A stretch of DNA of 44,770 nt from a virus. The notes below the pieces were generated by a model. The model made no database searches and had not been told where the DNA came from. It saw nothing but the letters and a program-made list of their open reading frames with translations. Of this stretch, positions 1,648 to 44,770 are shown in pieces (positions within the stretch are counted from its first letter, which is position 1; each line of letters starts with the position of its first letter). Both the position numbers and the translations under genes were made by a program. Location of the stretch: positions 1 to 44,770 of IMG/VR virus record IMGVR_UViG_3300028920_000118. One strand, given 5' to 3'.

Positions 1648-4600
1648 ATGGGAGATTACTATGAAAACATAGGGCTGGCCGATCAGCCTATAACTAACTA
1701 TGAACGCTTCCAGGCTAAGAAAGCTGCCGAAGAAGCCACGGGGCCAGATGCAGTATTGAAGGGGTTAGAAGCTTCAGCATCTTCCGCAATGACTCCATTT
1801 GCAGCTAAAAGAGCTTGGGATCGCAGGTCTTCTCAGTTTGAAGATGACCCGACATGGGAGATTACTGATGACCTGCGTTCTGATCTAATGCACGAATACA
1901 ACAAACATGAAATGGAAGAACTTGAGAAGTCAGGATCTGAGTCAGAGTTTCTGGCAAGGAAGAGATACATTCAAGAAGACAGAGATAGGTTATATGCAAA
2001 GTCTGCTCTTGGCTTGAAAGGTATCGTTGCTGACGTTGCTTTCTCATTGCTTGACCCTACTGCATGGGTTCTCGGCGCTGGCACTGGTATGCTGGGTGTG
2101 GGTGCCAAAGCTACCGGGCTTGCTAAAGCTGCCCAGGTTGCTACTATGGCAGGTATGGAGAACGCATTCCTTGAAGGTATATTAGCTCAAGGAGATACAC
2201 AGCATGAAGCTATTGACACTGTCATTGCCTTTGGTGGTGGTGCTACAATCGGTGCTGCAATGTCTCCTTTTGTAAGAACAAGAGGTGGAAGAAGGGTTGA
2301 CTTAGCTGATGAAGCTGATGACGCCTTCCGGCGGGATGCTGAGAACTTTGTAGCAGATGAGGTCTTGAAGAACTCACCAAGACCTCAGACAGACATTGAC
2401 ACTTATAAAGTTCAACGGCATATAAACACCAGAGATATTGAGCTTAACAGAGCTTATAAAGCTGGTGAAGCGTGGGATAATGCAAGGTTTGGGGAAGCTA
2501 AAAGACGTATCAAGCAGATTGACAAAGAGCTTGAGATAGAAAGTCTTAGGGAGGAATCCCCGGCTTTACATAGGGAAAGGGTTCGTGAAGAACAACGGTC
2601 TTTTATCAAGAAAGCTGAACCAGAGAGACAGAAGATAAAGGAGCAATACCGTGAAGGGATCGCTAAGCAACAAGAGAAGATCATCAAGATCGAAAAGAAG
2701 CTTGCTCAGAAGGACACACCCAAACAGCAAGCGAAGTTGTGGAAAGAAGAACTAAGACTTAGAGAGATACAAGCAGAAATGACAGGAAAGATCAGCCGCC
2801 TTGAATCAAAGCTAAAAGCCAGAATACACAAAGCTGAATACAAGTTCCGCAAAGCTACCAACCAGACAGCAAAGAGGGCAGTTGATTTACGTAATACTTT
2901 ACTGAGGGAAAGATTACAATTGAACCATGGTATGGACCTTGCTATTAAGTCCAGAAAGGCAGGTAAAGAACTCCAAGCCTGGAACAATATGACTTATGGT
3001 CAGAAGATCCAGAGTATTTTTGGTGAAGATCTGCCAACTATCAGTAGTAAGATGCAAGAGCAAGCCAAAGGGAGAGTTGACTTGAACTCTGATGCAAAAG
3101 TTAAGGTAGATGAAACAGTTGGTGTAGATGATGAAGGGATTATAACCGATACCAAAACTGCTCCGCTTGGATCAGCAGGTGCCGCAGCAGCGGGGTTCCG
3201 TCCCTTACATCGTCTATACAATTTAGCTGACCCTGTCAAGCAGTCTATTCAAAGGTTTGCATTTGATGGAGGAAAAGTACCTAAAGCCCTTGAAGGTTGG
3301 TCTTTGTTTCCTAAGTTTACCAAGTGGGCACATTCACCATTTACCAGACTATCCAAGTCTGATAATCTTACAATCCGTGGTTTGAACTACCACTTGCTCT
3401 CTGCTGGTCAGGGTGGACCTGCTAACCCTACAGGCGCTGCTGCTGTATGGTCAGATATTTATGGTAAGCAGTTCCGGTCTGCTGTTCGTAATAGGATCGC
3501 AGAAGGTATGGATATTTATCGGAAAGCCAATAACATTGGCAGAATGCAGATGATGTTCAAACCAGAAGTAACGCACCAGTTCTATAAAGATGTGATCATG
3601 GAAGTTAAGTATCCTGGTTCGATAGCTGATGATGGAGTCAAGCTTGCTGCCGAGGGTTGTCGTGACCTATTTGAAGTTGCGGGTAAGAGCATGAAGACCA
3701 GAGGTGTCAAAGGCTTTGAGAATTTGGACCTTGATAGGAACTACTTCTCAACTATTGTGGATGAAACCAGAATAGCGACTGCTTGCCGGGAGCATGGGAT
3801 TGATAAGGTTGAAGCCTTGTTATCTGATGCCTACCAACGCGGTGAGTTTGAGCTACCAAAGCAGACTGCCGACTATGTAGCCAGAGGATATGTAGCCAGA
3901 GCTTTGGACCATACTTTGAAGATGACTGAGTTCCCTACTAAGGTTCGGAACGTGGATATTGATAGGATGGTCAAAGGCTTGAAAGATGCAAATGTTCCAG
4001 ACGATGTTATCGAATCTTTCATATCCGAAGCTGCTGAGAGCAATCTTGTTCAAGGTATGTCCAATAGGGCAAAGAAGTCACTTAGACCTGACTTGCAAAC
4101 TGAGTTGAACGGGTTAAAGATGATTGATATGATTGAATCTGATGTGCCGAAGTTGCTTGAATCCTACACCAGAGAAGCTGCTGGAAGTTCTGCCATGGCA
4201 AGGCTTGGATTCAAAACAAGAAGAGAAGCTAAAGAGTTCCTAATGGAAGTTAAGAAGGACTCTTACAACCAAGGTTTCAATAAAGCAGACATTGACCAGG
4301 AAGTGCAGATTCTTTCTGACTGCATCGACATGATCTACGGTCGGTCCATTGAGAAAGATCCAGGTTCTACTTTCATTAGAAACATGAGCCGTGTCAGAGA
4401 CTTTACAGCACTTATGCGACTCCAAACAATGGGGTTGTCTACTATACCTGAGATTGCCAGAGTAACCGGCAAGAGAGGGTTAGGCACAGTCATGGATGCA
4501 ATACCTGATGTTGGTATCTTTGGAACCAGAGGAATACGGGCTGGAAAGAAATGGTCCGGTGAATTAACAAATCCTAAACTGAGAGAACTTGAAGATATGT

Positions 4601-8634: not shown

Positions 8635-8656
8635 TTAAGGGACCAGTTACGATATA
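8634..8656 (+). promoter_or_regulatory. Phage RNA polymerase promoter (variant copy)
   Basis: The sequence reads AAGGGACCAGTTAC-GATA, matching the recurrent promoter except for C instead of A at -1; the predicted +1 is G8651. It begins on the last base of the tailspike stop codon and would drive the lysis/packaging cluster. Confidence 0.65.
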
Positions 8657-11756: not shown

Positions 11757-13499
11757 ATGATTAAACATAGCCTTAAACAGGCAATTAAGATGTATGTCAG
11801 AGGACAGCTACACGATCTTGGCTTGCTTGAAGATATGGGCCTGGATTTTAATCTCCCTCTAATTGCAAGTATTGAACCAACAATCGGAGATACAACTACA
11901 ACTTTCAGCAGATCAACTACAGCAACAGTTGTGGATTTTGAAGGAGTGGTGCATACTACTCAGATTAATGAGGCAAGGTTTCCAGGTGCCAGACGGGTTG
12001 AAAATAGACTGACTGATTCAAGCAATTTATTGAATTGGTCATCTGCTGTTAATATTACAGATACAGGAGAAACAATAGAAGCACCAGACGGGAGTATTGT
12101 TAAAGTATTTTCAATGCCAATTGATTCTTATGCCTTAGATTATAACCTAGTACAGGTAGGCAGTAGTTATGTAAACAGTATATGGATTAAATCAGATGTT
12201 GAAACAACAATTGGTTTTCGTAGACCAACAGGTATAGCCGATTCATTTAATATTACTATAACAACAGAATGGCAAAAGTTTGAGATTCCTGGAACATGCA
12301 ATGCAGCTTTAACTACAGTAACATTTCTACTTGATAATAGAACAATCAGTGGATTCGGAACATATGACATCAACATTGCAATTTGGGATGCTCAGCAAGA
12401 ACATATGACAGGCACTCAAACTGGTGCTTCTGAGGCAGTATCCGTAGGAACCCTAAGTTACCCATACCACGGTGCTGGGGTTGACGGCGTTAAGTATTTC
12501 ACGACTGACAGAGACGGGAATAGCCTAACCGATCTACCGGGATATCTTAATGAGCCGAACGGTACTAACCTAGTAGTTTACTCAAATGACTTCACAGTTT
12601 GGACTGCTTCCGGAGGTGCAACTGCTTCAGGTAATCAAGCTATTGCTCCAAATGGTTTACTTGAAGCAGATTTAATATCTATTCCAACTTCTCTCGGAAG
12701 CATATTCACGGGAATTACCCCTACAGCTGGTGCAATATATACATATTCCATTTACTTACGTAGCGTTTCAGGCACTGGCATTGTAACACTTAATTGGTAT
12801 GATACTGTTGCAGGGCATCATCGGACTCCTGTTAACATAACAGAAGAGTGGCAGAGATTTGAAATTACCTTTACTTTATCAATAGGGGCTACTCACTTAT
12901 ATGCTTACGTAGGTGATGATAGGAGTAGTACATCAACTATATCAAGTTATTATGCTTGGGGCGCACAAGTTGAGTTTGGTTTAGGAAGTACATCTCATAT
13001 ACCTACATATGGCAGTACCGCTACCAGAACTGCTGATAGCTTGGAGTACGATGTATTTGATGTTATCACTCAGGGGCAAGGGAGCATGTTTTGTGAGTTT
13101 GCTATCGATTCGACACAATCAAGTGATTACAGGTTGTTGTATTTATCTGATGGAACTGCATCAAACATGATATACATGTATATTAATTCGGATGGAAAAA
13201 TATCAGGTACTGTTGTTAATTCTGATGTCACTGTTGGTTCAATCGAATCGTCAGTTGTTACTGTCCAGGACACAACTTATAAAGTCCTGTTAACTTATGA
13301 GGATGATCATATATGCTTATATGTTAATGGGGAACTTATAGGATCTGATACATCAGGGTCTATTCCAATGCTATCAACAGCATATCTTAATGTAGGATCA
13401 TCTTATGGTGGTTCTGATCAGATGATAGGGTGCATTAGAAATGTCAAGGACTTCAATCAACCATTAACAGAAGCACAAGCAATAAGGATTACATCATAA
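11757..13499 (+). CDS. Virion adhesin with two carbohydrate-binding-like repeats and a lectin-like C-terminus
   Basis: This 580-residue beta-rich protein probably binds host glycans. Residues about 85-215 and 272-425 look like two copies of a jelly-roll module, each starting near a sample-like SSNLLNWS or YSNDFTVWT and containing WQ(K/R)FE(I) before the last strands. The second ends with WGAQVEFG and a YGSTATRTAD link. Residues about 430-580 resemble a LamG/concanavalin-like domain (YKVLLTYEDDHICLYVNGEL, then IGCIRNVKDFNQPLTEAQA). Such proteins are known as head fibres or secondary receptor binders in phages. The ribosome site is AGGATTAGGAGG. The stop overlaps the next ATG (TAATG). Whether it sits on head or tail cannot be read from sequence. 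Confidence 0.65.
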   Translation: MIKHSLKQAIKMYVRGQLHDLGLLEDMGLDFNLPLIASIEPTIGDTTTTFSRSTTATVVDFEGVVHTTQINEARFPGARRVENRLTDSSNLLNWSSAVNITDTGETIEAPDGSIVKVFSMPIDSYALDYNLVQVGSSYVNSIWIKSDVETTIGFRRPTGIADSFNITITTEWQKFEIPGTCNAALTTVTFLLDNRTISGFGTYDINIAIWDAQQEHMTGTQTGASEAVSVGTLSYPYHGAGVDGVKYFTTDRDGNSLTDLPGYLNEPNGTNLVVYSNDFTVWTASGGATASGNQAIAPNGLLEADLISIPTSLGSIFTGITPTAGAIYTYSIYLRSVSGTGIVTLNWYDTVAGHHRTPVNITEEWQRFEITFTLSIGATHLYAYVGDDRSSTSTISSYYAWGAQVEFGLGSTSHIPTYGSTATRTADSLEYDVFDVITQGQGSMFCEFAIDSTQSSDYRLLYLSDGTASNMIYMYINSDGKISGTVVNSDVTVGSIESSVVTVQDTTYKVLLTYEDDHICLYVNGELIGSDTSGSIPMLSTAYLNVGSSYGGSDQMIGCIRNVKDFNQPLTEAQAIRITS

Positions 13500-13939
13500 T
13501 GAAAGTACAAGGATATATAGAAATTGATTATCAAGCTATGACTGGTGATCAGCTTCAGGAATTTAACAAGACTATGAGACAGTTCTGTATTTATTACTAT
13601 CGAGTGCATAAGGGCGATAGGGACTACTACTTCTGTATCCTTGAAGATATCTCAGTGCTTCCAACTTTGTTGGAGTTTATGGATGAAAGAAATCCAGTTA
13701 TTAATGGACTATGGGATATTGAAGGAACTCCGTATGGACAGATTAAGCAGGTCGATGCAGAAACCGGAGAAGTAACAATCACCGGAGATGCAGAGTACAG
13801 CTTTGATCTGGACATGCACCTTATTCACACACCTGATGAAAGCTCAATGGATGAAGATGGTAATATTACTAAGGTTACTGTTACTGAGTTTAAACCATTG
13901 CATAGTTTCTCTGGTTGGGAGCTATGTCAAGAATATTAA
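13499..13939 (+). CDS. Hypothetical protein coupled to the adhesin
   Basis: I do not recognise this 146-residue acidic protein. It is rich in aromatic residues early (FCIYYYRVHKGDRDYYFCIL), has a central turn-rich beta region and ends GWELCQEY. Its ATG overlaps the adhesin stop codon (TAATG), so the two are probably made in step. A fibre chaperone or a small virion partner would fit that arrangement, but there is no motif to support either. Confidence 0.6.
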   Translation: MKVQGYIEIDYQAMTGDQLQEFNKTMRQFCIYYYRVHKGDRDYYFCILEDISVLPTLLEFMDERNPVINGLWDIEGTPYGQIKQVDAETGEVTITGDAEYSFDLDMHLIHTPDESSMDEDGNITKVTVTEFKPLHSFSGWELCQEY

Positions 13940-14249: not shown

Positions 14250-14513
14250 ATGTTAAAAGAGTACAGCAGTATTCCTCAGAAGAGATTGGCTTGCCAAATT
14301 GAAGAAGAGGGTAAGGTGGAAAAGATTAAAGAAGGTATTGCTCGGTATACCAACAAAGTTGGAGCGATCCAGGAGATTATGGATTTCCAGTACGGTGACA
14401 AGAAACCGGAGACTGGTGATTATATTGTGAAGGAAAGCAAGACTGATTGCTATCTTGTGAAGAAAGATTTGTTTGAAAGAACGTACAGATCAACAGGGTT
14501 TAAGTTGCGTTAA
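14250..14513 (+). CDS. Hypothetical protein with GDYIV...YLVKKDLFERTY ending
   Basis: This 87-residue protein has a basic and helical N-terminus, then a strand-like GDYIVKE and a YLVKKDLFERTYR segment. That segment resembles the short phage proteins with a PGDWI...V(K/R)P(D/E)(I/V)FE.TY ending, whose role is unknown to me. The ribosome site is ATGGAGG. It is the last convincing gene of the accessory block and is followed by a hairpin. Confidence 0.65.
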   Translation: MLKEYSSIPQKRLACQIEEEGKVEKIKEGIARYTNKVGAIQEIMDFQYGDKKPETGDYIVKESKTDCYLVKKDLFERTYRSTGFKLR

Positions 14514-14532
14514 GCTTATTAAGTAACCTCCT

Positions 14533-14560
14533 GCTGGAACTGCTTGTTTAGGGTTCCAGC
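14533..14560 (+). terminator. Hairpin after accessory block, weak terminator candidate
   Basis: An 8-bp perfect stem GCTGGAAC/GTTCCAGC encloses a 12-base loop. It is followed by TTAACAATAATT rather than a T-run, so it may slow or protect transcripts more than end them. Confidence 0.4.
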
Positions 14561-14610
14561 TTAACAATAATTGAATTGTACTGACACTCAGAAGAGAAAG
14601 GAGATGTAAG

Positions 14611-14778
14611 ATGCAAAGTTTAGTGTTTAACATGTTGTTAAGTAGTATTGGTCAGTTTGTGACTGTAGAAAGTTCTGAGAATGAGCTGGATGATAGAGTT
14701 ATTGTTCTCATCCTGGCTATTGTTGAGTCAGCTCTATTGAGTGACAAAGCTCCGCTTGTTATAGACAGTACAGAGTGA
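14611..14778 (+). CDS. Hypothetical 55-residue protein
   Basis: The frame begins at an ATG with a good GAAAGGAGATG ribosome site and ends at TGA 14776-78. The product is hydrophobic and acidic, with a central aliphatic stretch (RVIVLILAIVESALL) that could be a buried or membrane-touching helix. Its stop overlaps the GTG of the next frame (GTGA). Part of its 3' end (GTGACAAAGCTCCGCTTG) resembles the hairpin repeat found just downstream, so it may be a marginal gene grown over repeats. Confidence 0.5.
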   Translation: MQSLVFNMLLSSIGQFVTVESSENELDDRVIVLILAIVESALLSDKAPLVIDSTE

Positions 14779-14996
14779 AAGGAGGTGATCAGCATCTAAG
14801 TGACAAAGTCACGCTTGGGTCTAACAAGCCTGAGAAGCTTAAGGATGCAAAGCATGAGTATTGTATGAAGTCTCTTGCTTTGCATCGAGCAAATATTACT
14901 TCCAGAGCGTACAATCAGATCATAGAACGATACTTGGAGCGTATAAGAACTGAAGTCAGAGCAAGGGATCAAACTGACGAAGTCAGAACTCTCTAA
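14775..14996 (+). CDS. Hypothetical basic helical protein, start uncertain
   Basis: This 73-codon frame opens with GTG overlapping the previous stop and encodes a Lys/Arg-rich helical protein with no recognised family. An exceptionally complete anti-16S match, AAAGGAGGTGATC (14778-14790), lies inside the frame after the GTG, not before it, and no ATG follows at normal spacing. Two copies of the C(RAA)G hairpin repeat (14800, 14974) fall inside. Either translation starts by coupling at GTG, or the frame is an accidental opening over regulatory repeats. Confidence 0.4.
   Translation: MKGGDQHLSDKVTLGSNKPEKLKDAKHEYCMKSLALHRANITSRAYNQIIERYLERIRTEVRARDQTDEVRTL
14778..14790 (+). promoter_or_regulatory. 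Full-length Shine-Dalgarno AAAGGAGGTGATC without an obvious start
   Basis: All 13 bases complement the conserved 3' end of 16S rRNA. The nearest downstream starts are GTG at 14800, which gives only 22 codons, and nothing in the main frame. A hairpin repeat begins ten bases after it. Confidence 0.6.
14800..14812 (+). repeat. Mini-hairpin GTGAC-AAA-GTCAC
   Basis: First of five 5-bp stems closed over an RAA triloop; this one has G-C as the outer pair. Confidence 0.75.
14974..14986 (+). repeat. Mini-hairpin CTGAC-GAA-GTCAG
   Basis: Second copy, with outer pair C-G and loop GAA, near the end of the 73-codon frame. A shortened relative, CTGAAGTCAG, lies about 25 bases upstream. Confidence 0.75.
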
Positions 14997-15181
14997 GCAA
15001 GATGAGATTTGATTTAGTTATACGGCACTCAGCTTGGAGTGTCAAGAGAGCCAGAGATGAAAATTTGATACAGTCACGCTCAGCACTTCTCCCCTGCGCT
15101 CTCAACTGACTTTCCCCCTTGGGGCTTGCTGTGTTAGCTCTGTCTAGCGATCTTAGACAAGACTAATCGCTCTGGGAGATA

Positions 15182-15194
15182 CTGACGAAGTCAG
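15182..15194 (+). repeat. Mini-hairpin CTGAC-GAA-GTCAG
   Basis: Third copy, identical to the one at 14974 and lying outside any gene. Confidence 0.75.
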
Positions 15195-15333
15195 CAGAAC
15201 CAGCCAGAGTTAGGAGAGACTAACATTTGCCTTGGAGCATAACAGTATAAGCTGGAGCTTGCCAAGTTCCTTGGAGCGAACTATCACTTCCTTGGCTAAT
15301 ACTTAGCAATACCTTGGAGAATGTTAGCCATTC

Positions 15334-15346
15334 CTGACAAAGTCAG
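15334..15346 (+). repeat. Mini-hairpin CTGAC-AAA-GTCAG
   Basis: Fourth copy, with loop AAA, followed by AGCGAGCAG. Inverted relatives (TGACTTTGCGCTC, TGACTTTCCCCC) occur near 15431 and 15107. Confidence 0.75.
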
Positions 15347-15617
15347 AGCGAGCAGAGGAAGTTAGGCAGACCAGCAATAAGTTAGGCAAGGCTAACAATG
15401 TAAGAGAGGGCCATCTGTTCGCTCTCGAACTGACTTTGCGCTCTTGTCCTGACTTGTAAAGTTCCAACTTACTTCTTATTTACTTCCTTATAACTTCTTT
15501 CCTTACCTAAGTTACTTGGAGAGTGATAGCAATTGATAGCCATAGCTAACAATGCCTTGGATACTCTCTTGTCTATTGCTGTTAGACTCACAAGTTCTTA
15601 TCAATTGTTAGCTCTTG

Positions 15618-15630
15618 CCGACAAAGTCGG
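15618..15630 (+). repeat. Mini-hairpin CCGAC-AAA-GTCGG
   Basis: Fifth copy. The stem differs from the fourth by T to C on one side and A to G on the other, so pairing is kept by compensating change. Confidence 0.75.
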
Positions 15631-15786
15631 AAGATGCAATCTTTTAACTATTAGATGAAGAAAGTTAGAAGCAAGTTTCTATCCGCCTTCTATGGTTCTG
15701 AACAAGCCTATCAAGTTATGTCAATCCATGAACTTACAATAAATTCAACAAGTTAAAAGAAAGTGTTCACTTATTTAAAAAATCGT

Positions 15787-15815
15787 TTGACAAAGCTTTT
15801 CAGTTCCTTCATACT
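15787..15815 (+). promoter_or_regulatory. Host sigma70-type early promoter
   Basis: A perfect -35 TTGACA is followed after 17 bases by CATACT as -10 (four of six consensus bases). It lies about 95 bases before the first early gene and upstream of the phage RNA polymerase gene, as expected for transcription by host polymerase on entry. Confidence 0.65.
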
Positions 15816-15848
15816 GGCCTTGCAAGTTGAGAGAAAACAGCTTGCAAG

Positions 15849-15878
15849 CCCGGATAGACCGGGTGGCCGACTTCCGGC
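15849..15878 (+). promoter_or_regulatory. Two tandem G+C-rich hairpins in early leader
   Basis: CCCGG-ATAGA-CCGGG and GCCG-ACTTC-CGGC, each with a five-base loop, lie between the early promoter and the ATAAGGAG ribosome site of the gene at 15910. They could stabilise the early transcript's 5' end or slow elongation. Confidence 0.5.
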
Positions 15879-15909
15879 AAACTAACTTTACTTTATAAGG
15901 AGACACACA

Positions 15910-17193
15910 ATGTCAAACGAACTTACCGCCAAAACAGTTAAATCCTACGAACTGACAATTGACGCAATGAACAACGTTATTAAAGAAGCAAACCTTGTTA
16001 TTGACGAACTTGCAAACGGTTGTACTTTGAAGACTGCTAAGTCCGAACTTGAAAGCTTTGTGGCTGATACTGCTAACTTGCCAATTGGTATCAAGGAAGC
16101 TGTCAAGGATGCAAGCAAGGCCAGAACTAAAAGTCTTTACATTGAAGGCATTGACTTGATTAAAGGCAAGCTTGTTGAGTCAATAAAAGTTGCTATGGGT
16201 GCCATTCATGATATCAAGCATGTACAGAAAGCCGCTAAGAAGGACAGCAAGACTGAAAAGCCGGAATTAAATCAAGATGAACTTGATAAACTGGCAGCTT
16301 GTGTCCGTGAAGCTATCGCACAAAGTCTCAAATACCACTTTGAAGCTGGTAAACTCTTGAGTGAAGCCCTTGACATGTTCAAGGCAAGCGGTAAACCTGC
16401 CAAAGAATGGATAGCATGGGCAAACACGGCTTGTCAGGTAAAGAAAGCACAAGCCTATAACCTTGTAAAGATCTATAACGACTTTGGCGACGTATCAGAG
16501 TTCAAAGGCTGTTCAATGAGAGTTCTTAACTTGCTGGTTCATTGTTCCAAGGATGTTTATAGCAAGATAGAAGAACAGGCCAAAGCCCTTGCCAAAGCTG
16601 GCAAGCTTACAAGCAAAACCGTAAACAAGCTTATTGCCAGTGTAAAGCCGGCACCTGTCAAACCTGCTACACATTCCAAACAGTCTAACACTGTTAGACA
16701 GGAAGACGAAACGCCGGACAATACCACTAAAGCAATTCAATCATCCATTGAAAATGGACAGGGAACCAGTATGAACCAGGAAGACAGCGAAATTAAAGAC
16801 CATAGCAAGGCTGATTTAGGTACCAGCAAAGATAAAGTTTCAGGTACTGAAACGGCAAACCAGACAAACAGCCAGATGGACGACAAAGACCGCCTGATTG
16901 CCGAACTTAAAGCCCAAAATGAAGCCCTTCAAAACCAGATTGCCGAACTTACCAAAGCAGTAAAGGAAGGCAACAAAGAGCAAGAAAAACCGGCACGGAC
17001 TGCTACCTACCTGCCCCAGTTTGAAGCCAAGAGTCCTAACCTTGTCTTAGGGATTGAAGCAACCGCAACCAAAGCCGAAATCAACAAACGGTATAGAACC
17101 ATGGCTGTTATCTTCAACGCTAAGACCTGCCCTAAAGGAGCTAAAGCCCTTAAAGCTGCAAGGGAAGCAATGCTGAAAACTGCTAAGAAATAA
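15910..17193 (+). CDS. Early protein with DUF3102-like segment, coiled coil and degenerate J-like C-terminus
   Basis: This 427-residue protein is the first early product and has no T7 counterpart I recognise. Residues 1-120 are charged helix. Residues about 140-215 (FEAGKLLSEALDMFKASGKP, WIAWANTACQVKKAQAYNLV) resemble DUF3102-type DNA-associated modules. Residues about 250-320 are a low-complexity linker that contains one GTCTAAC hairpin element. Residues about 324-358 are a coiled coil. The last 51 residues (LVLGIEATATKAEINKRYR) align with a DnaJ J-domain, but the HPD triad that activates Hsp70 reads NAK. Such a protein could act as an early host takeover or DNA-binding factor; that is inference. 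The start follows ATAAGGAG. Confidence 0.8.
   Translation: MSNELTAKTVKSYELTIDAMNNVIKEANLVIDELANGCTLKTAKSELESFVADTANLPIGIKEAVKDASKARTKSLYIEGIDLIKGKLVESIKVAMGAIHDIKHVQKAAKKDSKTEKPELNQDELDKLAACVREAIAQSLKYHFEAGKLLSEALDMFKASGKPAKEWIAWANTACQVKKAQAYNLVKIYNDFGDVSEFKGCSMRVLNLLVHCSKDVYSKIEEQAKALAKAGKLTSKTVNKLIASVKPAPVKPATHSKQSNTVRQEDETPDNTTKAIQSSIENGQGTSMNQEDSEIKDHSKADLGTSKDKVSGTETANQTNSQMDDKDRLIAELKAQNEALQNQIAELTKAVKEGNKEQEKPARTATYLPQFEAKSPNLVLGIEATATKAEINKRYRTMAVIFNAKTCPKGAKALKAAREAMLKTAKK
16683..16699 (+). promoter_or_regulatory. GTCTAAC-ACT-GTTAGAC hairpin inside a coding linker
   Basis: A perfect copy of the hairpin family lies within the early gene and is read as SNTVRQ. It is not followed by a ribosome site, unlike most copies. 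Confidence 0.7.
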
Positions 17194-17487: not shown

Positions 17488-17805
17488 ATGCAATCTTTTA
17501 ATGAAGACTTTAAAAACGTAACCGAAAAGCAGTTCATTGAAGCTATCAAGTTTTGTCAGGAGAACTACAAACACATTAGACAAGCAACAACGCCATGAGA
17601 TGAACTACACTGTGAAGAAGGGACAAGTTATTACCTGTCTGGCAACCCTGCTTTTATGGGCTTTGCCTTGTCACCTTCCGGCGAATTGACAAGCGTATTT
17701 TCAGCCATCAAAGGCAAGGGTAATACCATTGTGTCTAACCCTGTTAGACAAAACCTAAAAGCTCTGTCAATCCAGCAGGGCTTTCCTTTATTTAAAGGAA
17801 CAAAT
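17488..17805 (+). pseudogene. Interrupted acyltransferase-like gene running in frame into the RNA polymerase gene
   Basis: A frame with a good ribosome site encodes 36 residues (MQSFNEDFKNVTEKQFIEAI...) and then meets TGA at 17596-98. The same frame stays open afterwards and reads YYLSGNPAFMGFALSPSGEL, TSVFSAIKGKGNTIV, a pattern typical of small phage GNAT-like acyltransferases (a GFAL..GEL..VFS strand pair and a G.G acetyl-CoA loop). No further stop intervenes before the polymerase ATG at 17806, so the remnant is fused in frame to it. The usual C-terminal half of such enzymes is missing. The likely explanations are a nonsense mutation plus deletion, or read-through producing an extended polymerase. 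It carries a GTCTAAC hairpin copy at 17733. Confidence 0.6.
17733..17749 (+). promoter_or_regulatory. GTCTAAC-CCT-GTTAGAC hairpin inside the interrupted gene
   Basis: This copy is read as SNPVRQ, in the same frame as the copy inside the early gene (SNTVRQ). No ribosome site follows directly; the polymerase site lies about 45 bases on. Confidence 0.7.
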
Positions 17806-20460
17806 ATGTCCTACACTATTGAAGAACTCGCAGAATTACAGATTAAACTTGAAATAGGTATGAAGACAGCAGGAGTTGAAAGATTTCACAAAAATAATCA
17901 AAGAGCTATTGATAATGGTTCAAGTTCTGAAACTTATTGGAATAAGCGGATATTGCAGAACATCATAGGTCCAATGTCTGAAAGCATTGAAGCCTACATT
18001 GATTACTATACCGGACGACGTGGTAAACCCGTCAAGGCACTGGCTTATATCAAGCTGGTAGATCCGAAGGTTGCTTCATTTATTACCCTTAAAACCATCA
18101 TTGATAAGTCCGTTAGGGATGTTAATCTTGATTCGGTCATTGACAGCATAGGCCAGAAAATTGAAGATCAAGTAAGATTTGAAAGTATGGAGAAGTTCGC
18201 GGATAAGTATACAGCCAAGGTGAAAGAACGCTTGAAACAAGCAAGATCCAAGTCATATAGGCACCAGAGGAACGCCATGCTTGCAGGTGAGCGCAAGCTT
18301 GCCGAAGGGTCAGAAGACTTTGAAGCAATGGATGAATGGGAACCATGGGGCATCGACGCCCACAGGCATATCGGTTCCATGCTTGTTAATATTGTGCTTG
18401 ATAATATAACTTTTGAAGGCAACCCGGTATTCAAAAAAATCAATATCTTCCGTCAGTCTGGAAACGATAAAGGTAAGAAGTATAAAGAACTTACAAAGAT
18501 TGTACCAACTGAATATGTTTGTGCATGGATAGATGAATACAAGGAAGTTATGGAGAAAGAGTCACCTGCTTATCGCCCTTGTATCATACCACCACTTGAC
18601 TGGACAACTCCAACAAATGGAGGTTATCATGTACCAGAGATTAGAAACACTTTACCTATGGTTAAATGCCGAAAATCACAACGTAACAGGTTGACACTTG
18701 AACAGATGCCGCTTGTTTACAAGGCTGTTAATGGCTTGCAACGTATGCCCTGGAAGGTATCTAAAGATGTACTACAGGTTGCCATGGATATCAAGGAACT
18801 TGGCATTGACTTAGCTATGCCGCAACGTGAACCGTATGAAGTACCTGAATGCCCGGTTCCACCAGAGTACAAAGAGTTCAGGGGTAAAGACCTTAAACGT
18901 ATGCTAACTGACCAGGAATGGCAGGACTTCATGATCTGGAGAAAGGAAGCAACCTATGTTTACCTGTTAGACAACAAGCGTAAAGCAAAGTACATGACAA
19001 CGCATAGCACCATATCAACTGCTAAGATGTACCAAGATTTCGATAAGTTCTACTTTGTTTACACTATGGATTCCAGGGGCAGGGTTTATGCTAAGTCTGA
19101 TACTATCAGCCCACAAGGGGATGACTTACAGAAAGGATTGATTAAGTTTGCAGAGGGCAAGCCGCTTGGAACAGAGGGTTATTATTGGCTTGCCGTGCAT
19201 GGTGCTGGTAAGTGGGGCAATGACAAGATTACCTTTGATGAAAGAGTTAAGTTCATCGAAGATATGACAGATGATATCAGAGATTTCGTAGCAGATCCAT
19301 TAACAAACACAGGTTGGGCAGGTGCTGACAAGCCATGGCAGTTTCTGAACTGGTGCTTTGAATGGGCTGAACTTGCTGACTGGCTGGATGATGGTAAGGA
19401 TATGACAGAGTTCATGAGTTATATACCTTGCGCTCAAGATGGTTCCTGTTCTGGCTTGCAACACTACTCTGCTATGCTTCGCGACTCTATTGGTGGTCGG
19501 GCAGTTAACCTTGTACCAGACGAAAAGCCTAATGATATTTATGGACAGGTCAGTGACTTGGCAGTAGTTAAGCTTGAAGATATGGCAGCTACCGGGGAGT
19601 TGGGATTTGAAATGAAGACTAATCGGTTGTCACCTGAACAGATACAAGATGTTGCCAGTGGTTTACTTAACATTAAAGGCGGTATTAATCGCAGTATAAC
19701 TAAGCCACCTGTTATGACTAAAACTTATGGTTCAACTTACATGCGCTGCATGGAAACAACAAGTCAATACTTCATAGACCTTCAATCTAAGGAGAACAAG
19801 CAAGCTAAAGCAGAGAAGAGAGATCCGGTTCCGGTCCATCCCTTCGCACAAATTGGTGAAGAAGGTGTCACCTTGAGAGATGCAGAGAAGATATGTGCCA
19901 AGGTAATTTGGGAAGCTTTGAACGAGACAGTAACGTCAGCGGTTGACGGAATGCAGTTCATCCAACAAGTTGCAAGCTACATGGCTAAAGCTGGATGCCA
20001 TCTTGAATGGGAAACACCAACTGGTTTCATAGTTGAGCAAAGAGAATACGAGTACAAATCAAGACGTATCAAAACTCAACTGCTTGGCAACACAAGATTT
20101 ACTATCGCAGAAGAAACCAACAAGTTAGATGTTAATAAGATGCAGAGTTCAAGCTCACCTAACTTTGTTCATAGCATGGATGCAAGTCACTTGGTTCTGG
20201 CTGTAAATGCTTTCTTAGATGCAGGATTCAGTGGTATAGCTGTCATTCATGACGACTTTGGTACCCATGCTTGTGATACTCCAAAGCTTAGGGATCTGCT
20301 TAGAGAGACATTCGTTAACCTGTACTATAAGAATGATGTACTTGATCAGTTCCTTGAACATAATGAAGCCTTACTACTTGAAGAGATTGAAATTCCTTTA
20401 CCTGCATCTGGTACCTTGAACATTAAAGATGTACTTGAATCACCTTATGCTTTTGGTTAA
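17806..20460 (+). CDS. Single-subunit DNA-dependent RNA polymerase, T7-like
   Basis: From the ATG at 17806 the protein has 884 residues, against 883 in T7. An upstream in-frame ATG at 17656 only adds remnants of another gene, and AAAGGA lies six bases before 17806. Catalytic landmarks match T7 RNA polymerase: the metal-binding Asp in QDGSCSGLQHYSAMLRD (D545), the nucleotide-binding Lys and Tyr in KPPVMTKTYGS (K633, Y641), SPNFVHSMDASHL, and the second metal-binding Asp in HDDFGTHA (D816). It should transcribe the middle and late genes from the GRACCAGTTAAGA promoters in this window. A strong hairpin terminator follows the gene. Confidence 0.97.
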   Translation: MSYTIEELAELQIKLEIGMKTAGVERFHKNNQRAIDNGSSSETYWNKRILQNIIGPMSESIEAYIDYYTGRRGKPVKALAYIKLVDPKVASFITLKTIIDKSVRDVNLDSVIDSIGQKIEDQVRFESMEKFADKYTAKVKERLKQARSKSYRHQRNAMLAGERKLAEGSEDFEAMDEWEPWGIDAHRHIGSMLVNIVLDNITFEGNPVFKKINIFRQSGNDKGKKYKELTKIVPTEYVCAWIDEYKEVMEKESPAYRPCIIPPLDWTTPTNGGYHVPEIRNTLPMVKCRKSQRNRLTLEQMPLVYKAVNGLQRMPWKVSKDVLQVAMDIKELGIDLAMPQREPYEVPECPVPPEYKEFRGKDLKRMLTDQEWQDFMIWRKEATYVYLLDNKRKAKYMTTHSTISTAKMYQDFDKFYFVYTMDSRGRVYAKSDTISPQGDDLQKGLIKFAEGKPLGTEGYYWLAVHGAGKWGNDKITFDERVKFIEDMTDDIRDFVADPLTNTGWAGADKPWQFLNWCFEWAELADWLDDGKDMTEFMSYIPCAQDGSCSGLQHYSAMLRDSIGGRAVNLVPDEKPNDIYGQVSDLAVVKLEDMAATGELGFEMKTNRLSPEQIQDVASGLLNIKGGINRSITKPPVMTKTYGSTYMRCMETTSQYFIDLQSKENKQAKAEKRDPVPVHPFAQIGEEGVTLRDAEKICAKVIWEALNETVTSAVDGMQFIQQVASYMAKAGCHLEWETPTGFIVEQREYEYKSRRIKTQLLGNTRFTIAEETNKLDVNKMQSSSSPNFVHSMDASHLVLAVNAFLDAGFSGIAVIHDDFGTHACDTPKLRDLLRETFVNLYYKNDVLDQFLEHNEALLLEEIEIPLPASGTLNIKDVLESPYAFG

Positions 20461-42862: not shown

Positions 42863-44770
42863 ATGGCTGAAAAGAAACTTGAAAGGGAAGCAGTACAGAA
42901 CCCGTTTGATATGGGTCCGAACACTCGTTTCCAGCAACCTGCAAGACAGATGAAGCAGCAGATCAATAAACCGAGGTCGGCTTTCCAGAAAAGCAACCAA
43001 GGGTTACAGATAGTGGATTCCCTTCTTAGCTTTGCAGAAGCGGCAGGTGGGGTATATACCACACAAATGAGTAAGAAGATATCTGAGGATAAGATAGTTC
43101 AGACAGCCCTGGCTTCTGCCGGTGCTGGTCCCTCTGATGACGCCACCGTTGCCGGGTACCGTGCCCATGCAGCAGTTATCATGCAAGACAAAGTGATGCA
43201 ACACCAACTTGAACTGAACGAACTTGCCAAGCAGGATCTGACAGATGAAGAATGGGATAACGAGATCCGTAAACGGTACAGAGAAACGGATGAATATATC
43301 CAGAGTAACTACACCACCTACGATAAGGATAAAGAGATGCAGAAGCTACTCCCGTTATCCTTCCGTGAGATGATGCCGCAATTGAATGCGACAAGACAAA
43401 GTGAACAGATCAAGCTTATGGTTGAGAAGGGAAAGGACTCTATAACTGATTACCTAATCCAGCAAGCAAAGCTTATGCAGGATAACGGAGTTGCTCTTCC
43501 TCCCGACCAACTGGCTAACACCTTTGACTTTAAGTTGAAGGCACTAAAGCTTACCTCCAAGGAAAAGGATGATGTTATTGAGAATGCAATCCTGACCTCT
43601 AAGTCACCTGCTTTGCTGGAAGCTGCCAAGGTTTGGAAAGGTGACAGGAAGGCCAGCTTATTTGACAGATCAGCAAGATTGCAGACACTTGAGAAGAAGC
43701 TAACCAATGAAGCTTTAAGCACCGAGGCTGTGGCACTGACCACAAAGCTCATGGCAATTAAGCAGGGTATCATAGGTGGAGAGATAACCATTACTGACGG
43801 TATGGCAATGTTAGATAAGATGAACAAGGCTACCAATGGAGAGGCTGCATCCCGTGGCTTTATCAGTGGTATCTGGACTGATTACTACAAAGCCAGATCA
43901 GCAGAGGCAGAACTGACCAATACCAAAAGAATACTCTCTGACCCTAACAGTGTTGACACTGGCACCTTAAAAGAGAAGACCAAGAAGGCTGCATACCGTA
44001 GCATTTACGAAGATGAAATGGATAGGGCCGCCGATGCTGTAAAGGATCTTCCCGAGGTTCAGAAGCAGCAGCAGATGACCGTATTGAAGAAACAAGCCCA
44101 GGCCAGGGTAGCTGATATGGCAGTCAGGAACAATGATACCGTGGTTCCATTCGTTAATATCCTTCATAACCTTGCAACTTCTAATGTTGCTTTCAGGGCT
44201 GAGAAGGACGAGAATGGACAGCCAACTTTCGGGAATACTGAGAAAGAAGGCATCGGTCTTATTGAAGCTATGTCACCTATTGCATTGGTTCAGCACCTTG
44301 AAGAACTCGGAGGCCGTGGAAAGGAAGCAAGAGTTATCCGAGATTTCATGGCATACCGTGACCGTGGATTAACTGAACCACAGGCACTTGCCCAGGCCCA
44401 GGCTAACTACAGGAACCTTCCAGTAGCCAACGCCAAGCAGATCAATGCAGGTGTAGCAGAGGTTAGGGATAACCTTGAGTTCCTGTGGCATCCAGACTTT
44501 GAGGATAAGCAGGTACCCTATCTGGAAGAACAGATAAGAAATCAAATTGCTCTGTCTTCTGAACCAGATTCAGAGAGTAACATTGATCTGGTAACTGAAT
44601 ACTTCAAGAAAGGATGGACACAGGTTGGAAACTTGTGGATTAAAGGAAGCCAGAGATACCTTGCACAACAGTTAGGTGTTGATGGTTCCTTGAAGGGCAG
44701 GGCAGCAGGAGGTAACGGATGGATTAAGGATGCCTTCGATGCCTACCAGTGGGGAACCAAAGAAGATTGG
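42863..44770 (+). CDS. Internal virion protein, T7 gp15-like (N-terminal part, runs off the window)
   Basis: The gene starts at ATG 42863 behind ATAGGAGG and is open to the window end. It continues in frame at base 2 of the window through the terminal overlap and stops at 481, giving 724 residues in total. The N-terminus (NPFDMGPNTRFQQPARQMKQ) is followed by long charged helices. Size and order match T7 gp15, a core protein ejected with gp14 and gp16. No catalytic motif is visible. Confidence 0.78.
   Translation, partial: MAEKKLEREAVQNPFDMGPNTRFQQPARQMKQQINKPRSAFQKSNQGLQIVDSLLSFAEAAGGVYTTQMSKKISEDKIVQTALASAGAGPSDDATVAGYRAHAAVIMQDKVMQHQLELNELAKQDLTDEEWDNEIRKRYRETDEYIQSNYTTYDKDKEMQKLLPLSFREMMPQLNATRQSEQIKLMVEKGKDSITDYLIQQAKLMQDNGVALPPDQLANTFDFKLKALKLTSKEKDDVIENAILTSKSPALLEAAKVWKGDRKASLFDRSARLQTLEKKLTNEALSTEAVALTTKLMAIKQGIIGGEITITDGMAMLDKMNKATNGEAASRGFISGIWTDYYKARSAEAELTNTKRILSDPNSVDTGTLKEKTKKAAYRSIYEDEMDRAADAVKDLPEVQKQQQMTVLKKQAQARVADMAVRNNDTVVPFVNILHNLATSNVAFRAEKDENGQPTFGNTEKEGIGLIEAMSPIALVQHLEELGGRGKEARVIRDFMAYRDRGLTEPQALAQAQANYRNLPVANAKQINAGVAEVRDNLEFLWHPDFEDKQVPYLEEQIRNQIALSSEPDSESNIDLVTEYFKKGWTQVGNLWIKGSQRYLAQQLGVDGSLKGRAAGGNGWIKDAFDAYQWGTKEDW
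44557..44770. repeat. Terminal redundancy of the contig, right copy
   Basis: Matches 1..214 except at 44683 (T against G127). Confidence 0.93.

Follow-up and report, generated by a model that had tools for sequence, protein, structure and literature searches.

What is the role of a cluster of very small, perfectly paired hairpins in the genome of a phage? The DNA analysed here, termed the window and comprising 44,770 bases, contains five of them on the plus strand, each with a C:G closing pair and the loop RAA: GTGAC-AAA-GTCAC (14800-14812), CTGAC-GAA-GTCAG (14974-14986 and 15182-15194), CTGAC-AAA-GTCAG (15334-15346) and CCGAC-AAA-GTCGG (15618-15630), numbered 1 to 5 in this order. An earlier note on this DNA had given these sequences and positions, all of them correctly; the start-to-start spacing is 174, 208, 152 and 284 bases. 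It had ascribed the hairpins to selection for structure and had proposed promoters of a virion RNA polymerase, single-strand origins or packaging marks as possible functions.

Genome and relatives

The first 214 bases of the window recur at the end of the record (1-214 versus 44557-44770) with one mismatch (99.5 % identity). This overlap shows that the record, despite being listed as linear, is a circularly permuted genome, complete at about 44.56 kb and cut open at no particular place. Judged from its sequence, the window is the complete genome of an SP6-like autographivirus. Terminase, RNA polymerase and gene order are of the T7/SP6 type. The RNA polymerase (934 aa, 17656-20460) is of the SP6/T7 type and the sole RNA polymerase found in the window; also encoded are primase/helicase, DNA polymerase, portal, tail, terminase and a T7-type internal virion protein, the latter by the largest open reading frame (1324 aa). 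The terminase is about 52-54 % identical to those of SP6 and Vibrio Colwellvirinae phages. Searches for relatives with single proteins (the 427-aa protein described below, RNA polymerase) found none, and the DNA of the hairpin region had no match in phage records. Terminase and pair alignments provided two relatives, L002 and L012; the RNA polymerase pair alignment provided L002 only. The terminase of L002, an IMG/VR record, is 87 % identical to that of the window.

The hairpins are located in the only long non-coding stretch of the window. It is preceded by the last late gene (14250-14513) and followed by a putative early host promoter, TTGACA-17-CATACT (15787-15815, plus strand); the context of this promoter, AAAAATCGTTTGACA, is shared with L002. 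Downstream follows the first early gene (15910-17193, plus strand), coding for a protein of 427 aa and unknown function (phrog_4571). This terminus-adjacent gene is conserved in SP6-like phages and Colwellvirinae, and its product is a candidate terminus-binding protein. A repeated element, TTAGGRACCAGTTAAG, was observed in the window at 8636, 11176, 20572, 23235, 26940, 28044, 33042 and 37820, and in L002 in the form ATTTAGGGACCAGTATAGGA; with its SP6-like layout it is probably the promoter of the phage RNA polymerase. A search for intrinsic terminators from 13.9 to 16.0 kb revealed one consensus-like site at 14405 and none at the hairpins.

Predicted genome terminus

The hairpin region is predicted to be the genome terminus, the ends being assigned by homology. 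A direct terminal repeat (DTR) of about 325 bp is predicted at 15088-15412, bounded by a left-end signal TCTC..(22 nt)..CCCCCTTGGGG (15088-15123, plus strand) and a right-end cut signal GCCATCTGTT (15410-15419, plus strand; CCCT/ATCTGTT in T7, GGGCTA/TCTGTT in SP6). Both signals are homologous to those of T7, T3, SP6 and Nufs112. In the records of T7, SP6 and Nufs112, the direct terminal repeats are exact, with lengths of 160, 174 and 410 bp, respectively. The repeats of T7 and SP6 begin with TCTC, all three have CCCC..GGG about 25-30 nt further in, and in all three ATCTGT follows the end directly or is at most one base away from it. The DTR of T3 likewise ends at the right-end (C/T)ATCTGT signal; its ends, determined by sequencing, begin with TCTC (PMC3896407). 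The left-end signal (TCTC, about 25 nt, CCCC..GGG) lies at 15088/15114 in the window, at 15300/15326 in L002 and, with TCTT, at 3087/3114 in L012, the right-end signal (C/T)ATCTGT at 15413, 15738 and 3416, respectively. The predicted DTRs thus have lengths of about 325, 438 and 329 bp. Mini-hairpins 1 and 2 are situated before the predicted DTR of the window, 3 and 4 inside, mini-hairpin 3 at 94 nt from the left end, and 5 is situated 206 nt to the right of it. The predicted terminus adjoins the early host promoter, in agreement with the earlier placement of the hairpins beside a genome end and an early promoter.

Enrichment and stability of the mini-hairpins

The common core GACRAAGTC occurs five times in the 44,770 bases, always on the plus strand and always within 14802-15628, hence the genome-wide scatter that would have spoken against a local element was not seen; shuffled sequences had 0.52 copies on average and two at most. 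Of the 10 C(RAA)G cores inside 14514-15780, 5 extend into a perfectly paired stem of 5 bp or more, versus 2 of 249 outside (P = 5e-7), and these two, at 13660 and 14350, are less than 1.5 kb from the predicted terminus. Dinucleotide shuffles of the region contained 0.04 hairpins of the C(RAA)G or C(TTY)G type, the region itself five. Loops of three bases were favoured (9 versus 1.7 expected), loops of four were not (1 versus 1.6). Chance as the source of the cluster was rejected by the shuffle and core-count tests.

Three further sites were added to the set. CCAAG-TTC-CTTGG (15262-15274), with a GAA loop on the minus strand, is homologous to a site at 15530 in L002. CCAACAAAGTTGG, i.e., CCAAC-AAA-GTTGG (14350-14362, plus strand), lies inside the last late gene, where it codes for TNKVG, and is identical in L002 at 14445. 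The third, TCCAAC-AAA-GTTGGA (13660-13674), is CCAACAAAGTTGG on the minus strand, inside the open reading frame 13499-13939. Folded as single-stranded DNA, the 13-mers of the window have free energies of -2.1 to -3.3 kcal/mol; stems of 5 bp are only marginally stable.

The same non-coding region contains dispersed short repeats, CTTGGAG(CG)/CCTTGG and TTAGC/CTAAC (14930-15560, plus strand), and with six copies of CTTGGAG in 14500-15900 they form a short degenerate repeat array. Short repeats at T7-like ends are already known, e.g., CCTAAAG in T7, and share with those of the window the location in or beside the DTR, the non-coding context and the many short degenerate copies. Vibrio phage AS51 has CTTGGAGCG boxes that match those of the window, and the CTTGGTAG boxes of Njord and HJG are similar to them. 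The hairpins are mixed with such CTTGGAGCG-type repeats, which correspond to the short-repeat arrays at other autographivirus ends. The window differs from these arrays in that a number of its copies form complete hairpins without mismatch, in which the C(RAA)G triloop is constant and the stems vary. A non-coding 15-nt inverted repeat, GATGCAAAGCATGAG/CTCTTGCTTTGCATC, was observed at 14844-14886, immediately before the predicted DTR.

Conservation and covariation in relatives

The class of hairpins is conserved in the corresponding regions of both relatives. L002 has CTGACGAAGTCAG twice, CCGACAAAGTTGG and (A)TGACGAAGTCAG on one strand and CTGACAAAGTCAG, CCAACAAAGTTGG, CCAACGAAGTTGG and TCAACGAAGTTGG on the other; L012 has CCGACAAGGTCGG, CTGACGAAGTCAG and GCTACAAAGTAGC. 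In the window (15182) as well as in L002 (15394), the distance of CTGACGAAGTCAG from the predicted left end is exactly 94 nt. With the exception of this +94 site, number, position and orientation of the hairpins vary among the relatives: half of the L002 copies are on the other strand, whereas all five copies of the window share one orientation. At one homologous site the closing pair has changed on both sides, from CCAAG-TTC-CTTGG in the window (15262) to CCAAC-TTC-GTTGG in L002 (15530).

For a test of the outer pairs, sites were picked by the inner core ACRAAGT alone. All three outer pairs were Watson-Crick pairs at 12 of the 16 cores in the region, the one unpaired core L012 2886 being counted here, and at 4 of 31 cores outside (P = 4e-5). 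A separate alignment of 16 sites combined 15 ACRAAGT cores with the conserved 14350 site and left out L012 2886. Pairing was kept in 98.8 % of its pair cells, and 14 cells had changes on both sides, compared with 4.1 after shuffling and at most 7 in slid controls, although the copies may be related by duplication and are then not fully independent. The unpaired stems in relatives that the earlier note had named as evidence to the contrary were not seen across these 16 sites, and the proposal of selection on structure is supported by the pairing kept through stem changes.

Triloops were not markedly enriched in the non-coding regions of L004, L008, L010 and L011. The ends of SP6 and of other Colwellvirinae (Njord, HJG) contain short repeats and no C(RAA)G mini-hairpin; at the HJG end there is one CCGCA-TTC-TGCGG, the closing pair of which differs.

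Hairpin in T7-like terminal repeats

The DTR of T7 contains GTCAACC-TTC-GGTTGAC at position 66, the DTRs of T3 and phiYeO3-12 contain TTAACC-TTC-GGTTAA at 79, and KP32 has TTAACC-TTT-GGTTAA at 72. On the opposite strand all of these read as triloops of the class of the window, C(GAA)G or C(AAA)G. One such hairpin, AACC-(TTC, TTT or GAA)-GGTT, was present in T7, T3, KP32 and about 25 related records, where its distance from the left end is about 65-80 nt. The right-end signal was used to retrieve 45 IMG/VR loci, and where such a locus reaches as far as the left end, it has the hairpin in most cases; of the 649 C(RAA)G cores at other places in some of these loci, only 3 had a 5-bp stem. In the window, the hairpin at 15182 is comparable: its stem comprises 5 bp, and its distance from the predicted left end is below 100 nt. 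It shares with the T7, T3 and KP32 hairpin the triloop, the C:G closing pair, GAA or AAA on one strand and the location in the DTR less than 100 nt from the left end. The latter, however, is present in one copy per DTR, with a stem of 4-7 bp and other arms, whereas the family of the window is multi-copy and extends outside the DTR.

A free MAFFT alignment of the T7-like DTRs misregistered the Klebsiella hairpins, and hairpin-centred rows were used instead. The inner four pairs of these rows are partly fixed by the search pattern, covariation was thus tested by the outer pairs only. The outer pairs change on both sides, with U-A, C-G and A-U at one pair, and in phage C2 the closing C-G is replaced by U-A. 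The loop is flipped between identical flanks in two loci, cacccctaacc-GAA-ggttaaacctt in L059 and cacccctaacc-TTC-ggttaaacctt in L079, and also between NC-A and T7. Loops inverted between otherwise identical hairpins are shared with the non-coding flip-flop loops of plastids (PMC6342102), but those have stems of 18-19 bp and are located in introns, while the phage-end hairpins have stems of 5-7 bp. The C(RAA)G hairpin was absent from the DTRs of SP6, gh-1, K1F and BA14, thus it is a common but not universally required element of the DTR. In the DTR of L048, which is without the usual hairpin, another C(AAA)G triloop, CACCC-AAA-GGGTG, was observed nearer the left end, at about 49-61.

Possible function of the hairpins

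Our preferred reading, which we hold with about even confidence, regards the hairpins as DNA elements of the terminal repeat that form structures and probably serve end duplication or packaging. The arms covary around a conserved loop and closing pair, and the orientation is free, with copies on both strands in L002 and flipped loops in the T7-like phages; both observations argue for a DNA structure rather than an RNA signal or an operator. The flipped loops further imply either a real folding back of the DNA strands or a template switch of replication over the hairpin. The position of the hairpins about the two cut signals would point to steps at the concatemer junction, namely repeat duplication, terminase processing or the passage of replication. 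The junction may become negatively superhelical or single-stranded during replication, duplication of the terminal repeat or terminase processing, and the C(RAA)G triloops would then extrude or fold. The end-processing and packaging machinery or the replication fork would meet the hairpin itself and not an exact sequence. In N4, small hairpins extrude at physiological superhelicity, for which a C:G closing pair and a loop with 5'G and 3'A are required (PMC4496689). The unusual stability attributed to C(GAA)G before is in line with this rule for two of the five loops of the window (GAA), the three AAA loops do not conform to it. We infer extrusion in vivo in this phage together with the role in end duplication or packaging. 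The proposal of a packaging or end mark remains the best of the earlier ones; the location at the predicted terminus and the hairpin structure are shown, the function is inferred.

The main rival is neutral turnover of the terminal repeats, an account that we regard as unlikely but to be taken seriously. Short repeats would spread in the non-coding terminus, and template-switch (quasi-palindrome) mutations would make or perfect hairpins that have no function. The fast turnover of repeat content and hairpin positions is expected from such a process, loop flips and the restoration of pairing in one step are typical of template switching, and the flip-flop loops of plastid introns are homoplastic (PMC6342102). 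Moreover, the 3' arms of the hairpins often run on into the AGCG or AGCT of the CTTGGAGCG repeat. Neutral turnover explains the shifting positions and the flips; it explains less well that the preference for a single loop size and for the core C(RAA)G is so strict (nine triloops versus one four-nt loop; five hairpins versus 0.04), that the +94 site is kept in the window and L002, and that the hairpin at about +65-80 is retained across T7, T3 and the Klebsiella phages.

An action as RNA elements is considered distinctly improbable. The hairpins would have to act in a transcript crossing the terminus, e.g., by late read-through on concatemers, affecting stability, pausing or protein binding. The common orientation of the five window copies would fit, as would the folding, which is stronger as RNA (-3.4 to -4.9 kcal/mol) than as DNA, and the G-U pairs on the RAA strand of two L002 sites. 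However, the hairpin region is without a phage RNA polymerase promoter of the TTAGGRACCAGTTAAG type, and the early promoter follows only after it; the mixed strands in L002 and the flipping loops of the T7-like DTRs do not agree with an RNA signal, and an Rfam search, up to E = 1, gave no match.

Double-stranded operators, 13-bp palindromes bound by a dimeric protein such as the first early gene product for replication, partition or repression, have a low probability in our estimate: dyad symmetry, five copies and the adjoining first early gene are consistent with them, but a dimer site would fix the arms and leave the spacer free, and here the spacer RAA is fixed and three of the five arm pairs vary with compensation. 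Finally, N4-type promoters or single-strand origins, in which a virion RNA polymerase or a primase would read the extruded hairpins, are hardly credible, as the likeness to the N4 early promoters in stem (5-7 bp), 3-nt loop, C:G closing pair and the two GAA loops that fit the extrusion rule is met by AAA loops, by a location and orientation unlike promoters, by the lack of a giant virion RNA polymerase (about 3500 aa in N4; the 1324-aa protein is an internal virion protein, and an SP6-type enzyme is the sole RNA polymerase found), by an ordinary host-type promoter at 15787 and, for the origin, of which no evidence was obtained, by the mixed orientation in L002, which argues against a directional site.

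Other hairpin families

A second family of hairpins, GTCTAACNNNGTTAGAC, with a 7-bp stem and a 3-nt loop, is dispersed over the genome, with nine matches at up to two mismatches versus 0.12 expected. Sites were found at 481, 16683, 17457, 17733, 23729, 28449 and 33333 in the window, at 630, 11933, 21393 and 21466 in L002, at 7309 in L012, and in L017. They are often located just 5' of a ribosome-binding site, but also occur in-frame, coding for SNTVR at 16683 in the window and for ESNTVRQ in the RNA polymerase of L017. In these respects the family resembles a mobile palindrome. GTCTCAC-type versions of it were observed in the terminal repeats of Njord, AS51 and HJG, near the right cut. The predicted terminal repeat of Vibrio phage AS51 (L032) further contains two identical triloop hairpins, TGTTAT-GTT-ATAACA, 35 nt apart (3666 and 3701).

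Implications for autographivirus ends

The completion of the left terminal repeat before packaging is still incompletely understood in T7-like phages (PMC3350473). As a tentative generalization, more doubtful than probable at present, autographivirus terminal repeats may contain a C(RAA)G mini-hairpin that has so far gone unrecognised, can extrude, is selected for its structure rather than its sequence, flips in replication and is involved in repeat duplication or terminase processing. A search of the open literature found no paper describing a C(RAA)G hairpin in the DTR; the classic T7 papers are poorly covered there, and an earlier description is possible. A covarying, loop-flipping hairpin in matching positions of T7, T3, KP32, many Klebsiella phages and a new lineage would represent a mutable cis-element in the best-studied lytic phage, and its sequence signature could help to find where the physical ends lie in metagenomic phage genomes that were assembled as circles.
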